Assembly: GCF_040958695.1 (NCBI RefSeq)
Contig: NZ_CP162599.1
Location: 1,212,001 to 1,276,000, forward strand
Direction of reading: 5' to 3'
DNA from: Ornithinibacillus sp. 4-3
GTDB taxonomy: Bacteria; Bacillota; Bacilli; Bacillales; Amphibacillaceae
Length of the DNA stretch: 64,000 nucleotides
The first letter of the stretch is position 1, and every line of letters starts with the position of its first letter. Below are positions 42,093-46,862 of the stretch, in pieces. The notes under the pieces are model-generated. The model did not search any database and had not been told where the DNA came from. It saw only the letters and a program-made list of their open reading frames with translations. A program made the translations under genes and the position numbers.

Positions 42093-42965
42093 ATGACAAG
42101 AACTCAAGCCAATTTAATTTTAGTTACGATTACAATTAGCTGGGGTACCTCATACATATTTATGAAAATGGCTGCAGATACGATGTCTGCTTTTTCAATT
42201 GTAGCTTTACGATTTGGAATTGCATTTATCCTAATGTTTTTACTTTTTTATAAAAAAATGCTTAAAGTGGATCGACGAACTTTACAATATAGTTTTGTAT
42301 TAGGAGCACTTCTCGCAGCAACTTTTATTGTTTTCATCGCTGGAGTTAGAACAACATCAGCCTCAGTTGCTGGCTTTTTAACAAGTACAACAGTTATGTT
42401 TGTCCCATTATTCCAAATGATTATAACAAGGAAATTGCCAGTTAGAAAAATCAGGATCGCTGTTCTACTTGCTTTTATTGGATTGTTACTCTTTAGTATC
42501 AAAGGTGATTTTTCATTATCAACAGGAGCACTTCTTTGTTTAGCAGGAGCAGCAATTTATGGAGTTTACATTATCGTAACAAATAAGTTTGCTAAAGAAG
42601 TAGACGCTTTTGTCCTCGGTATTTATCAACTTGGATTTACTGGTGTGATTGCGTTAATGTTTGTCTTTATTGCTCAAACTCCATTAACACCGCCATCTAA
42701 AATGGAATGGATTGCAGTGCTGGGTTTAGCTATAATTTGTACAGCCTATGGTACAACCATGCAGCCTGTAGCGCAGAAGTATACAACAGCGGAAAATACA
42801 GGCTTTATTTTTGCACTTGAACCACTATTTGCAGCAGGATTTGCCTTTATTCTTTTAAATGAAACACTGACTGGGCAAGAATATATTGGTGCTGCTTTTA
42901 TTTTGATTAGTGTATTAATAGCAAATTATACTCCACGGGAGAAGAAGGTAGTATCAACTTCATAA
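42093..42965 (+). CDS. EamA/DMT family transporter
   Basis: 290 aa, ten membrane helices in two EamA repeats (ITISWGTSYIFMKMAAD at 10-27; LCLAGAAIYGVYIIVTNKFA at about 148; LEPLFAAGFAFILLNETLTGQEYIGAAFI near the end). Drug/metabolite efflux type; substrate unknown. AATGGAAGTGAT precedes the ATG. Confidence 0.88.
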   Translation: MTRTQANLILVTITISWGTSYIFMKMAADTMSAFSIVALRFGIAFILMFLLFYKKMLKVDRRTLQYSFVLGALLAATFIVFIAGVRTTSASVAGFLTSTTVMFVPLFQMIITRKLPVRKIRIAVLLAFIGLLLFSIKGDFSLSTGALLCLAGAAIYGVYIIVTNKFAKEVDAFVLGIYQLGFTGVIALMFVFIAQTPLTPPSKMEWIAVLGLAIICTAYGTTMQPVAQKYTTAENTGFIFALEPLFAAGFAFILLNETLTGQEYIGAAFILISVLIANYTPREKKVVSTS

Positions 42966-42992
42966 TATGTTAAAATAATAACTAAATAAAGT

Positions 42993-43090
42993 TAATAGAG
43001 GATGTTCAAAAAGTCCAACAAAAATGACACGGCGAATTTCTACGTTAACGTCCTTTTTATCGACTTTTTTGCACATGTACTAATAGAGGA
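42993..43090. repeat. Short copy of the MITE-like repeat with flanking TAATAGAGGA
   Basis: AGAGGATGTTCAAAAAGTCC (42998 on) matches the left end at 27360. The right end GACTTTTTTGCACA (43063-43076) is its imperfect inverse. TAATAGAGGA occurs on both sides, at 42993-43002 and 43081-43090. The right copy supplies the ribosome-binding site of the next gene. Confidence 0.7.
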
Positions 43091-43099
43091 GGGGCTAAA

Positions 43100-44251
43100 T
43101 TGAATGAACCCAGTAAATTTATTAAATTTTTAGGTGGAAAAAATTTAATATTTTCCTTGGTAGTATTAGTTTTATTAGGATTAGTAATCATTGTTTTTGA
43201 TAAAATATCTTTTCTTTTTGAACCAGTGTTTATTATCATGGCAACGATTACACCACCTGTAATATTAGCTTTTATTGCTTTTTATCTATTAAATCCAGTT
43301 GTAAATTTACTTGAAAAAATTAAGATTAATCGACTTTGGGGGATTATTCTCCTGATTATTGCGTTTTCTGGTATCATTACAGGTGTTTTCATGCTCACTA
43401 TACCAGTAATTCAGCATCAAATTATGGAGTTAATTACAAATTTCCCAGGCTACATAGAAACGATTAATGAGACAATTAATACACTTGTAAGTAATTCAAT
43501 TATTGAAAATTATTATAATCAAGCACGCTTATGGGTAGAGGATAATATTGGTAATATTCCATCTACAATTGGAACATATTTAGGTAGTGCAATTGATAGT
43601 ATCGCAGGGTTTGCTCAAGCATTGACAACCGTTATTGTATCACTTATTACTTTTCCATTTGTCTTATTCTTTTTATTAAAGGATGGGAAAAAATTTAGAG
43701 AATTCTTTTTAAAATTATTTCCAAAAGGTTTTAGAAAAGACGTTGATCAAATCATTAGTAATATGGACACACAAGTAGGTTCATATATTCAAGGACAGAT
43801 TTTTGTAGCCTTTTGTATTGGTCTTTTATTATTAATTGGGTATTTAATTATTGGCTTAGATTATGCGATTACATTAGCTATTATTGCTGCGGTAACTAGT
43901 GTAGTACCTTATTTGGGACCAATCATAGCAATTACACCAGCAATCATTATCGCAATTGTTACTTCACCATGGATGCTAGTGAAATTAGCTATCGTCTGGG
44001 CGGCAGTTCAGTTAGCAGAAGGAAATCTAATCTCACCAAACGTGATGGGAAAAACAATGAAGGTTCACCCATTAACGATTATGTTCGTCCTGTTAGTTGC
44101 AGGAAAGATTTTTGGATTAGTTGGGGTAATTCTTGGAATTCCAGGTTATGCGATTTTGAAGGTGCTCGTTACCTATGCATTTGGCAAATTTAAACTTCAT
44201 TACAATAAATACTATAAAGATGGATATGAAGCAGTAGAGCCAAAAGAATAA
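43100..44251 (+). CDS. AI-2E family transporter (YtvI/YueF-like permease)
   Basis: 383 aa, starting at TTG 43100 with AGAGGAGGGG 7 nt upstream; the nearby ATG is out of frame. About eight membrane helices with the family pattern: PVILAFIAFYLLNPVVNLLEK, FPFVLFFLLKDGKKFREFFLKLFP, YIQGQIFVAFCIGLLL, VPYLGPIIAITPAIII, and GNLISPNVMGKTMKVHPLTIMFVLLVAGKIFGLVGVILGIPGYA. The substrate is unknown; some relatives are Na+/H+ antiporters, so AI-2 transport should not be assumed. Confidence 0.88.
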   Translation: MNEPSKFIKFLGGKNLIFSLVVLVLLGLVIIVFDKISFLFEPVFIIMATITPPVILAFIAFYLLNPVVNLLEKIKINRLWGIILLIIAFSGIITGVFMLTIPVIQHQIMELITNFPGYIETINETINTLVSNSIIENYYNQARLWVEDNIGNIPSTIGTYLGSAIDSIAGFAQALTTVIVSLITFPFVLFFLLKDGKKFREFFLKLFPKGFRKDVDQIISNMDTQVGSYIQGQIFVAFCIGLLLLIGYLIIGLDYAITLAIIAAVTSVVPYLGPIIAITPAIIIAIVTSPWMLVKLAIVWAAVQLAEGNLISPNVMGKTMKVHPLTIMFVLLVAGKIFGLVGVILGIPGYAILKVLVTYAFGKFKLHYNKYYKDGYEAVEPKE

Positions 44252-44289
44252 TGATTTATGGATAATAATCTGAAAGGAGGTGAGTATGT

Positions 44290-44664
44290 ATGTTTTTAGA
44301 GGTACTAAGTGATTTATTTGCAAACTCACCAGTATTTTATATGTATTTTGGAATGTTTATTTTTACAGTTGGATGGAGTCAAATGCTTATCTTCCAGCAT
44401 CATCGTTTACATGTGCATATGAATGTGACCATTAATGAACTTCAGAAAGTTGAAGTTGATAATAGGATGTTTACACAACCGCTTATTCAGCATGTTTTAT
44501 TTATCAACTGGTTTATTAAGAAGTTCAAACGAGCAGATAAATCTAGTACAGATCAAGAAGACACGTCTCTCTCTTATTTTAAAAATAGATTTAAAATAAG
44601 AGGAGGACAAAAATGGAGAAAAACAACATACTTACATCCTTTGCAGGAAAAAGCATTATATTAG
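44290..44664 (+). CDS. mifM: MifM-like translation-arrest leader upstream of yidC2
   Basis: 124 aa, ATG 44290 with AAAGGAGGTGAG upstream. N-terminal membrane segment (about 13-35, YMYFGMFIFTVGWSQMLIF), a helical soluble part, then INWFIKKFKR (72-81) and DQED (88-91). B. subtilis MifM (95 aa) has TTWIRKVFRM with Trp73 and DEED at 86-89, so spacing and chemistry agree within two residues. The frame then runs through the yidC2 ribosome-binding site and ends 52 nt inside yidC2; the last 30 residues are probably not functional. Role by analogy: stalls when membrane insertion is poor and exposes the yidC2 start. Confidence 0.72.
   Translation: MFLEVLSDLFANSPVFYMYFGMFIFTVGWSQMLIFQHHRLHVHMNVTINELQKVEVDNRMFTQPLIQHVLFINWFIKKFKRADKSSTDQEDTSLSYFKNRFKIRGGQKWRKTTYLHPLQEKALY
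44566..44607 (+). promoter_or_regulatory. Hairpin sequestering the yidC2 Shine-Dalgarno
   Basis: CTCTTATTTTAAA (44571-44583) is perfectly complementary to TTTAAAATAAGAG (44590-44602) with a 6-nt loop. The right arm runs into AGGAGG (44601-44606), and the flanking TCTCT can pair on with it. The left arm begins 8 nt after codon D91 of the leader, so a ribosome stalled at DQED would cover it. Confidence 0.7.
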
Positions 44665-45404
44665 GAGCTATTCTTTTATTATTTTTGACAGGCTGTGGTG
44701 GTGGCGATTTTACACCAATTGATGCATCAACAACAGGCTTTTTTAATCAATATTTCGTCTATCCATTTTCATTGCTGATAAAGGGTGTTGCAAGCTTTGT
44801 AAATGATAGTTATGGATTATCAATTGTACTAATTACATTAGGATTAAGGCTTGTGATTATGCCTTTTATGGTAAAACAACAGAAGCAAGGTCAGCATTCT
44901 CAAGCAGTAATGAAAATAATCAAGCCTGAGATGGAACAGATACAAGAGAAGTATAAAGATAAAAAAGAAGTTGAACATCAGCTAGAAATGCAGAAAGAAT
45001 TAAGTGAACTATACAAAAAGCATGATTTTAATCCTGGAAAAATGATGTTAGGTTGCCTGCCATTAATTATCCAAATGCCATTTCTGATTGGATTTTATTA
45101 TGCGATTCGCCGCACACCAGAAATTGCAGAGCATACATTTCTTTGGTTTAATCTAGGGGAAACTGATTATATACTGATTGCAATTGCGGTATTGGTCTAC
45201 TTTCTACAAGCGCGTGTTAGTATGCTTGGTTTAGATGAAAAAAGTAGAAAAACAATGGCAATGATGGCGTATTTCTCACCAATTATGATCGGAATAATTT
45301 CCTTTGTTGTACCTTCAGCTCTAACAATGTACTGGGCTGTAGGAGGAATATTTATGATTATCCAAACTTTGTTTATCAAGAAGATTATTTTAAAACAAAT
45401 ATAG
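44613..45404 (+). CDS. yidC2: YidC/Oxa1 membrane insertase, lipoprotein type (YidC2/YqjG-like)
   Basis: 263 aa. Lipoprotein signal with LTGCGGG (Cys28), then five membrane helices. YidC core: FSLLIKGVASFVNDSYGLSIVLITLGLRLVIMP, a charged coiled-coil loop, NPGKMMLGCLPLIIQMPFLIGFYYAIR, and PSALTMYWAVGGIFMIIQTLFIKK. The conserved groove Arg is in LGLRLVIMP. It inserts membrane proteins with or without Sec. It is assigned as the second paralog because of the MifM-like leader and because no rnpA/jag neighbours are present. Confidence 0.88.
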   Translation: MEKNNILTSFAGKSIILGAILLLFLTGCGGGDFTPIDASTTGFFNQYFVYPFSLLIKGVASFVNDSYGLSIVLITLGLRLVIMPFMVKQQKQGQHSQAVMKIIKPEMEQIQEKYKDKKEVEHQLEMQKELSELYKKHDFNPGKMMLGCLPLIIQMPFLIGFYYAIRRTPEIAEHTFLWFNLGETDYILIAIAVLVYFLQARVSMLGLDEKSRKTMAMMAYFSPIMIGIISFVVPSALTMYWAVGGIFMIIQTLFIKKIILKQI

Positions 45405-45577
45405 GCTTACTAGGAAGAGACTGGGACAAAAGGAAAAACTAAGCTTGAAATCCAAACAATATTCAAGTGAAGCGTAGGAAAAAGTCTGAAATAAAGACCT
45501 CAAAGGTATCATTTAATTATAGACATGCCAAAGAAACCATCAAAAGATGATTTTTAAAAAATGGATTTGAATCAATT

Positions 45578-46829
45578 CTAGGTAGCGGTAGGTCGCTCTA
45601 GAATGCGAAATCCTTGAGATTTTGCGAATGAAATTGCTTGTTCAACCGTGATTTCACGGCTTACTGGAAGAACATCTACTGTTTGGTATAATTCCGGATT
45701 ATAAGGTTCTTTCTTCTTTAAAATATGATATATTGCAGTTAATAACATTCGTGCGATGGCGATAATCGCACGTTTGTGACCGCGTCGCTTTTTTATGTTT
45801 AAGTAGCGGTTTCGAATTTCGGGATGTTTATCGCTCTTCACTACACTAAGACAACATTGTACGAGGAGAGGTTTTAAATATACTCCTGCTCTCGAAATTC
45901 TAACAGACTTTTTCTTGCCGGCACTTTCATGATTGGTTGGTGTTAACCCTGCCCATGAACATAAATGCTTGGCTGTCGGGAACACGTCCATCTTCACACC
46001 TATTTCTGAGATAATAGTAATGGCAGAAAAGATGTTTTTAATGGACGGAACAGTCAGAAGTAAATTTATTTCTTCGGTGTAGGGTTCGGCAAGAAAAAGA
46101 ATCATTTTCTCAAGCTCTTGCTTCCGTTCTTGAATATCCTCATAATGTTGTTTTATCACTGCCATTTTTCCAGCCTGTTCAGGAGTGATAAAACCATCCA
46201 CCGCAAGCTTTAGTTCTTCGACTTTATGTTTCATTGCCCCAAAAACTAATGGTTCGATATCAAAATCAGTATGAGTTGGATGGTCTAAAAGTTTTTGAAT
46301 AATATTCATAGAACCTTTTCCAAACGTGTCACTGACAGTGTTGGCAAGTTGAATGTTAGAGACAGTTAAACTATTTTGAAAACGATTTTTTTCACTGGAA
46401 CTAAAATTAGTGAGTTTATAGCGATAACGCATTAAATCTCGAAGCTGTCTGATTCGAAATGGTGGCATAAAACTTCCAGCTACCAAGTCATGTTTGAATA
46501 AATCAGCTATCCATTTCGCATCTTTCTTATCTGTTTTTTTTCCCTCGAATCGCTTTCACATATTTAGGATGTGCTAAGGTGATATCACAGGAATCCTCCA
46601 ATATATTAAACACAGGAATCCAGTATTTTCCTGTTGATTCCATGCAGACATCTTTACAACGATGTTCATCAAGCCATTTGGACAGCTCTCTCAATCCCTT
46701 TGTATAGGTTGAAAAGCGACGGCTTTGATAGGAAGTAACTCCATTGGTTGTGGAAGCAATCACCGCCACCACAAAATTTTTGTGGACATCAATACCACAA
46801 CAAATAGGGTAGACAATTTTTAAAGCCAT
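45578..46829 (-). pseudogene. IS110-family transposase, frameshifted
   Basis: From ATG 46829 (AGAGGAG upstream) the first frame gives CGIDVHK (catalytic Asp), CMESTGKYW (Glu) and stops after KYVKAIRGKKNR. In the next frame the protein continues KTDKKDAKWIADLFKHDLVAGSF to a full C-terminal transposase_20 domain (LLTVPSIKNI, FPTAKHLCSWAGLTPTNHESAGKKKSVRISRAG). The break is an 8-A run at about 46539-46546; removing one A restores about 416 codons. The DxxD catalytic pair lies just after the break. Inactive unless slippage on A8 rescues it. Confidence 0.85.
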
Positions 46830-46862
46830 AAAAAGACTCCTCTCTAGAATATATAGAGACAA

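Follow-up and report, generated by a model that had tools for sequence, protein, structure and literature searches.

The window analysed comprised 64,000 nt of the genome of Ornithinibacillus sp. 4-3. On its forward strand, a gene for a membrane protein insertase (yidC2, 44613-45404; PF02096, E 4e-42) was directly preceded by a leader open reading frame of 124 codons (44290-44664, +). The leader began at an ATG at 44290, 9 nt past its own Shine-Dalgarno sequence (SD) AAAGGAGG (44273-44280, +), and its frame ended at 44664, 52 nt inside yidC2. The gap between the upstream gene for an AI-2E transporter (43100-44251) and the leader was 38 nt (44252-44289), and a pattern scan of 42900-45600 listed neither a promoter nor a terminator there, so the two may be cotranscribed. 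In the dual-frame stretch (44613-44664, +) the last leader codons ran over the first yidC2 codons in a different frame, each leader codon consisting of yidC2 codon positions 2 and 3 and position 1 of the next codon. The two ORFs just downstream of yidC2 on the minus strand (45578-46862) resemble what we take to be pieces of an IS110-type transposase. Elsewhere in the window, three matches to the Bacillaceae-1 RNA (RF01690; 13308-13373, -; 27397-27464, +; 47181-47244, +) and a T-box leader (RF00230; 41515-41740, -) were found.

A protein search with the 124 leader residues returned one match, the leader itself; the Pfam and NCBIfam searches gave 0 families, and a search of solved structures gave chance hits only (E 2.1 and above). 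Hydropathy predicted a single N-terminal membrane segment, with the 19 most hydrophobic residues (9-27) encoded at 44314-44370 (+) and a top 17-residue mean hydropathy of 1.41. The sequence INWFIKKFKR occupied residues 72-81 and included W74 (44509-44511, +). It was followed by DQED at residues 88-91 (44551-44562, +), the presumed stall site, as judged from its position and from the conservation of an acidic cluster in relatives. MifM leaders are small ORFs that lie immediately upstream of yidC on the same strand and have an N-terminal localization signal (here judged by hydropathy only), and both features were present. A further criterion, from excerpts of PMC10987492, is a local charge lower than -0.3 over five consecutive residues between positions 70 and 100; the leader reached -0.6. 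A stem hiding the yidC SD and a second YidC elsewhere in the genome (3692585-3693139) belong to the same set of features and were likewise found. The second YidC was preceded by an ORF that presumably corresponds to RnpA, and SpoIIIJ of B. subtilis also stands behind RnpA.

RNA folding predicted a hairpin of -19.3 kcal/mol (z -4.23), and none of 200 shuffled sequences was equally stable. Its main stem paired 44570-44583 with 44590-44603 in 14 pairs, 13 of them Watson-Crick, and a second helix of 4 pairs joined 44565-44568 to 44605-44608. The right arm (44590-44608, +) contained the yidC2 SD AGGAGG (44601-44606), and the left, anti-SD arm (44565-44583, +) lay within leader codons and thus serves both as coding sequence and as the pairing partner of the SD. 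Counted from D91, the main stem began at the eighth nucleotide. The initial annotation, made from the sequence of the window, had described an ORF with one N-terminal membrane helix directly before yidC2, the positions of INWFIKKFKR and DQED, a 13-bp hairpin starting 8 nt after D91 with AGGAGG in its right arm, and a reading frame that passes through the yidC2 SD and start; each of these observations was borne out, and the RNA folding that it had proposed as a check gave the energies above. Its claim of a striking match in spacing to B. subtilis MifM stood as a close match but not as an identical one: the Trp and the last acidic residue were 17 positions apart in the window (W74 and D91) and 16 in B. 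subtilis (W73 and D89, numbered as in the excerpted text of PMC4423224). Compared by eye, the B. subtilis arrest residues R69, I70, I74, M80 and N81 were not clearly kept in the window leader; only the Trp and the acidic cluster, which is DEED in B. subtilis, were.

Relatives of the leader were found by six-frame whole-genome searches. The single leader sequence had a match in 14 of 61 genomes, its own included, and a search for related loci with YidC2 gave 3. Profile A1, built from 10 leaders of which nine overlapped yidC2 and one was short, had matches in 98 of the 159 genomes of the window's family and in 13 of 398 genomes drawn from the class. A stop lay within 3 of the 98 family matches, and the set was not chosen for openness, because the profile search reads through stops. 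After removal of copies, 95 family loci were retained and 92 scored, with L029, L049 and L083 left out. In L029 (genome G099) and L049 (G094) the yidC2 frame was interrupted and the leader frame was open. The stretch 135078-135386 of contig C1 in genome G000 is locus L227.

In the family, the long leader and a second YidC nearly always occurred together: among the same 159 genomes (E 1e-10), two or more YidCs were present in 97 of the 98 with an A1 match (G112 showed one), whereas 57 of the 61 without a match had one YidC and four had two (G026, G152, G034, G006). G034 and G006 carried a short leader (end -22) before a YidC2 of the other lineage (L213, L214). A mifM-yidC2 pair from another family (L051 and L129; G216, family f60) fell inside the YidC2 clade of the window's family, beside L105 on a starred branch, a placement that suggests horizontal transfer.

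The initial annotation had named absence of W74 and DQED from relatives as grounds for giving up a MifM-type assignment. This was not what the relatives showed: a Trp lay 11-15 residues ahead of the acidic centre in 90 of the 92 family loci, and the acidic cluster recurred, although the exact letters DQED were peculiar to the window's own genome. No Trp was found in the searched range in 2/92 family, 9/33 other long and 16/42 short loci. The median distance from the membrane segment to the acidic cluster was 53.5 residues in the long family loci, 50 in other long loci and 53 in short loci; the published MifM median, as given in the excerpts seen, is 54. With the testable features present in the window and recurring in relatives, the sequence comparisons support a MifM-type reading of this leader.

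Pairing of the SD also recurred. When the stretch between the acidic cluster and AUG+12 was folded for each locus, the SD was on average more than half paired in 92/92 long family, 33/33 other long and 40/41 short loci, but shuffles that kept the SD also paired it often (means 0.69, 0.65 and 0.72, respectively), and 56/92, 18/33 and 16/41 loci exceeded these shuffles at 0.05. The anti-SD arm started at a median of 6 nt past the acidic window and in many leaders consisted of Ser-Phe-Ser codons after the acidic cluster. Pair types at SD-1 to SD-4 varied on both sides, in counts that were made locus by locus from each predicted fold and therefore lean towards pairs. No consensus structure emerged when 56 loci, aligned with MAFFT, were folded together by RNAalifold (energy 0.0).

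The overlap with yidC2 set the window leader apart from the MifM of B. subtilis, which stops ahead of the yidC2 start. Within the excerpts consulted, we found no published family criterion that asks for such a stop, and its absence was treated as the mark of a variant. All 92 scored family loci stopped inside yidC2, at +28 to +109 nt, 90 of them in one frame; L013 and L113 used the other frame and still had overlaps of 95 and 32 nt. In other families, 28 long loci shared the main frame (seven family codes, with 18 of the 28 from f37) and 5 were long in another; the long, short and other sets of the codon tests were all sampled unevenly. The 42 short loci outside the family, included when their net acidic count was at least 3, came from 23 family groups and ended 9-42 nt before yidC2. 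Long loci in another phase (L013 and L113 in the family; L055, L154, L168, L174 and L203 elsewhere) were counted as long and left out of the codon tests. When 10 loci without a called uORF were inspected, MifM-like short frames were seen in L197, L200, L226, L156, L159 and L162 (stops -27 to -52); the class without a called leader in the base +4, codon and tree comparisons below therefore includes missed short forms. The B. subtilis-like loci L200 and L226 carried RITTWIRKVIRMN and NDDED and stopped at -33, in agreement with the stop a few codons after the stall in B. subtilis MifM (PMC6037786, in the text available).

On a tree of 110 YidC proteins with the N-terminal regions removed, the distribution of long and short leaders required 4 changes. 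One branch (SH-aLRT 93) comprised 33 short rows and 17 rows with no called leader, 50 in all and none of them long, and the clade containing the family's long loci was long throughout. Exceptions were L203 (long), which adjoined the short L204 and L221; the short L056 and L225 near the root; L177, ending at +7, beside the short L173; and L168, with a long frame, whose genus-mate L161 was short. Because the two designs clustered on the tree although a single mutation could interconvert them, the pattern suggests that each is held in place. The distance from the acidic cluster to the AUG was alike in both classes (47-65 nt in the long family loci, 42-66 nt in short loci), which points to an ON geometry common to both and a difference in the exit. 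The exit design that the initial annotation had singled out as odd was thus real and recurrent, and by these comparisons the long overlapping leader is a conserved class of its own. A literature search of titles and abstracts returned no description of a MifM overlapping yidC2. The known MifM set, 572 sequences from 592 Firmicutes genomes according to the excerpts of PMC10987492, may well include long forms.

We consider it reasonably probable that the window leader is a monitoring leader of the MifM type, of a long, overlapping class, with arrest and release as follows. When YidC capacity ran short, the leader would fail to insert and its ribosome would stall near D91. If D91 (44560-44562) occupied the P site, the leading edge of the ribosome would reach about 44575, as estimated from the general size of a ribosome footprint. 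The stalled ribosome would unpair 44565-44575 of the anti-SD arm and free the SD, and a second ribosome could start yidC2, for which there should be enough room, as 53 nt separate the stalled P site from the AUG. Successful insertion would release the stall. The released ribosome would then elongate past the SD and AUG and end beyond the initiation footprint, with no termination before the hairpin, whereas a ribosome escaping from a short form would terminate before the AUG. Long-form ribosomes that escape would thus pass the hairpin without pausing to terminate and would sweep over the start of yidC2. A stall, by contrast, would both open the hairpin and shield the start from later leader ribosomes. 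Such an exit would be expected to lower leak and speed shut-off.

A MifM-type arrest could also operate with an overlap that merely moves the leader stop off the yidC2 start, avoiding cover of the SD and re-initiation, with no active sweep. The positions of the stops fit this account: few lay near the AUG, and most long overlaps were 46 nt or more. In the scored sets no long leader ended before +25 and no short one after -9; L177, at +7, belonged to neither set. Short leaders, however, work with stops 9-42 nt before the AUG, which indicates that a near position is tolerated. Sequence hardly tells displacement of the stop and a sweep apart, and we regard displacement as rather unlikely.

Ordinary translational coupling, in which the passage of leader ribosomes opens the hairpin with no nascent-chain arrest, has one argument in the ribosome. 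Residue 90 of uL22 was Gln in the window's genome, versus Met in B. subtilis. According to the excerpts of PMC4423224, this residue alters the efficiency of MifM stalling, and Gln is among the residue-90 variants of other lineages considered unlikely to promote it. A residue that permitted stalling in the B. subtilis tests (Met or a hydrophobic residue) was thus not found here; this is a trait of the ribosome and no published criterion for the leader family. Among the matched family genomes, 85 had Gln and 10 Met (95 of 98 readable). These residues speak against assuming B. subtilis-like stalling, and the leaders would be either tuned to Gln90 ribosomes or stalling more weakly. Coupling would further agree with the passage of long-form ribosomes through the hairpin, and the stall in the window leader is a presumed one. 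Against coupling, in leaders of divergent sequence the Trp and the acidic cluster stood at conserved distances from one another as well as from the membrane segment and the hairpin, the presence of the leader tracked the second YidC, and in B. subtilis itself the arrest of MifM is established (PMC6037786 and PMC4423224, in the portions available). On balance, coupling without arrest appears improbable.

Two further relations of uL22 to the leader were considered and rejected. In a comparison of 80 genomes, Gln90 showed no tie to the long form. Outside the family, long loci had 12 Met and 1 Gln (1 of 14 without a match) and short loci 23 Met and 7 Gln; family genomes lacking the leader had 2 Met and 6 Gln, and the two family genomes that carried a short leader had 1 Met and 1 Gln. 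The eighth residue after the leader Trp was Lys or Arg in 9 of 10 Met90 loci versus 16 of 76 Gln90 loci (Fisher 3.6e-5). Co-variation of uL22 residue 90 and the leader was dropped, as uL22 changed only twice on the tree and the starred branches provided 1 independent pair, with no signal.

If the overlap were neutral, the leader would have lost its stop and run on to the next chance stop, which falls inside yidC2. The window taken alone is compatible with such an origin, much of the leader tail RGGQ.W being dictated by the SD and AUG. The family loci spoke against it. No stop lay between the acidic cluster and the AUG in 92/92 loci, versus 31.8 expected when the sequence ahead of the SD was shuffled, and the distance between the two was 2 mod 3 in 90 of 92, so that the spacing ran in steps of three; in 41 short loci it was 0, 1 and 2 mod 3 in 21, 12 and 8. 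In the codon test, the YidC2 protein was fixed, synonymous codons were randomized and the leader frame was read over its first 14 codons beyond the AUG. The frame was open in 88 of 90 family loci versus 61.5 expected, and in thinned sets in 47/48 and 32/33 versus 32.1 and 21.0; corresponding values were 1/42 versus 1.3 for short loci and 3/26 versus 2.6 for loci without a called leader. For long loci outside the family the test was not significant (26/28 versus 23.6; thinned 9/11 versus 7.5), which leaves the neutral account some room there. Codons for Leu, Ile or Val that put a stop into the leader frame were used 3 times in 61 in yidC2 codons 2-14 of the family, versus 1202 in 3145 from codon 40 on (Fisher 3.6e-9), and in short loci 37/97 and 512/1347, respectively. 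Base +4 was A in 0/118 long, 36/42 short and 21/26 loci without a leader, which for the long loci follows in part from their definition, as an A there reads as TGA. By four tests the overlap appears to be under selection in the family, placing the first yidC2 codons under a dual-coding constraint, and a neutral origin is very improbable. A -1 frameshift fusing leader and YidC2, for which the frame phase would be right, is hardly credible, as no shared slippery heptamer was seen by eye and yidC2 comes with an SD, an AUG and a lipoprotein-type signal of its own.

Beyond the MifM-type assignment, we tentatively propose that two arrest-leader designs are kept separately, that the long overlap itself regulates by sweep and shield, and that it works on ribosomes with Gln90 in uL22, which are thought unfit for efficient MifM stalling. 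The long class would then have a second OFF state, testable by simple reporters, and the Gln90 ribosomes with long leaders would form a natural set for the known question of species specificity. MifM is a proven nascent-chain sensor, and the proof found in the literature excerpts comes from the short B. subtilis form.

Several known systems share this logic. SecM and VemP are, like the proposed window leader, arrest leaders that free the SD of the export gene under their monitoring (excerpts of the literature on MifM and arrest leaders, which included PMC7897499), but they monitor Sec and not YidC, and their arrest sequences differ. CliM of Clostridia, shown to monitor YidC (PMC13183943, in the text available), has an arrest motif of the KYxIW type that was absent by eye from the 124 residues of the window leader, and the two sequences are unrelated; it resembles the leader in that it precedes a yidC and that a stem covers the start of yidC2, its arrest being known and that in the window presumed. 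B. subtilis MifM, with 95 codons and a ribosome with Met90, differs from the 124-codon window leader, which runs through the yidC2 SD and AUG on a Gln90 ribosome. In its position before YidC2 (YqjG), its N-terminal membrane segment, its SD-hiding stem, the presence of a second YidC, and a Trp and an acidic cluster at similar spacing, MifM and the window leader are alike.
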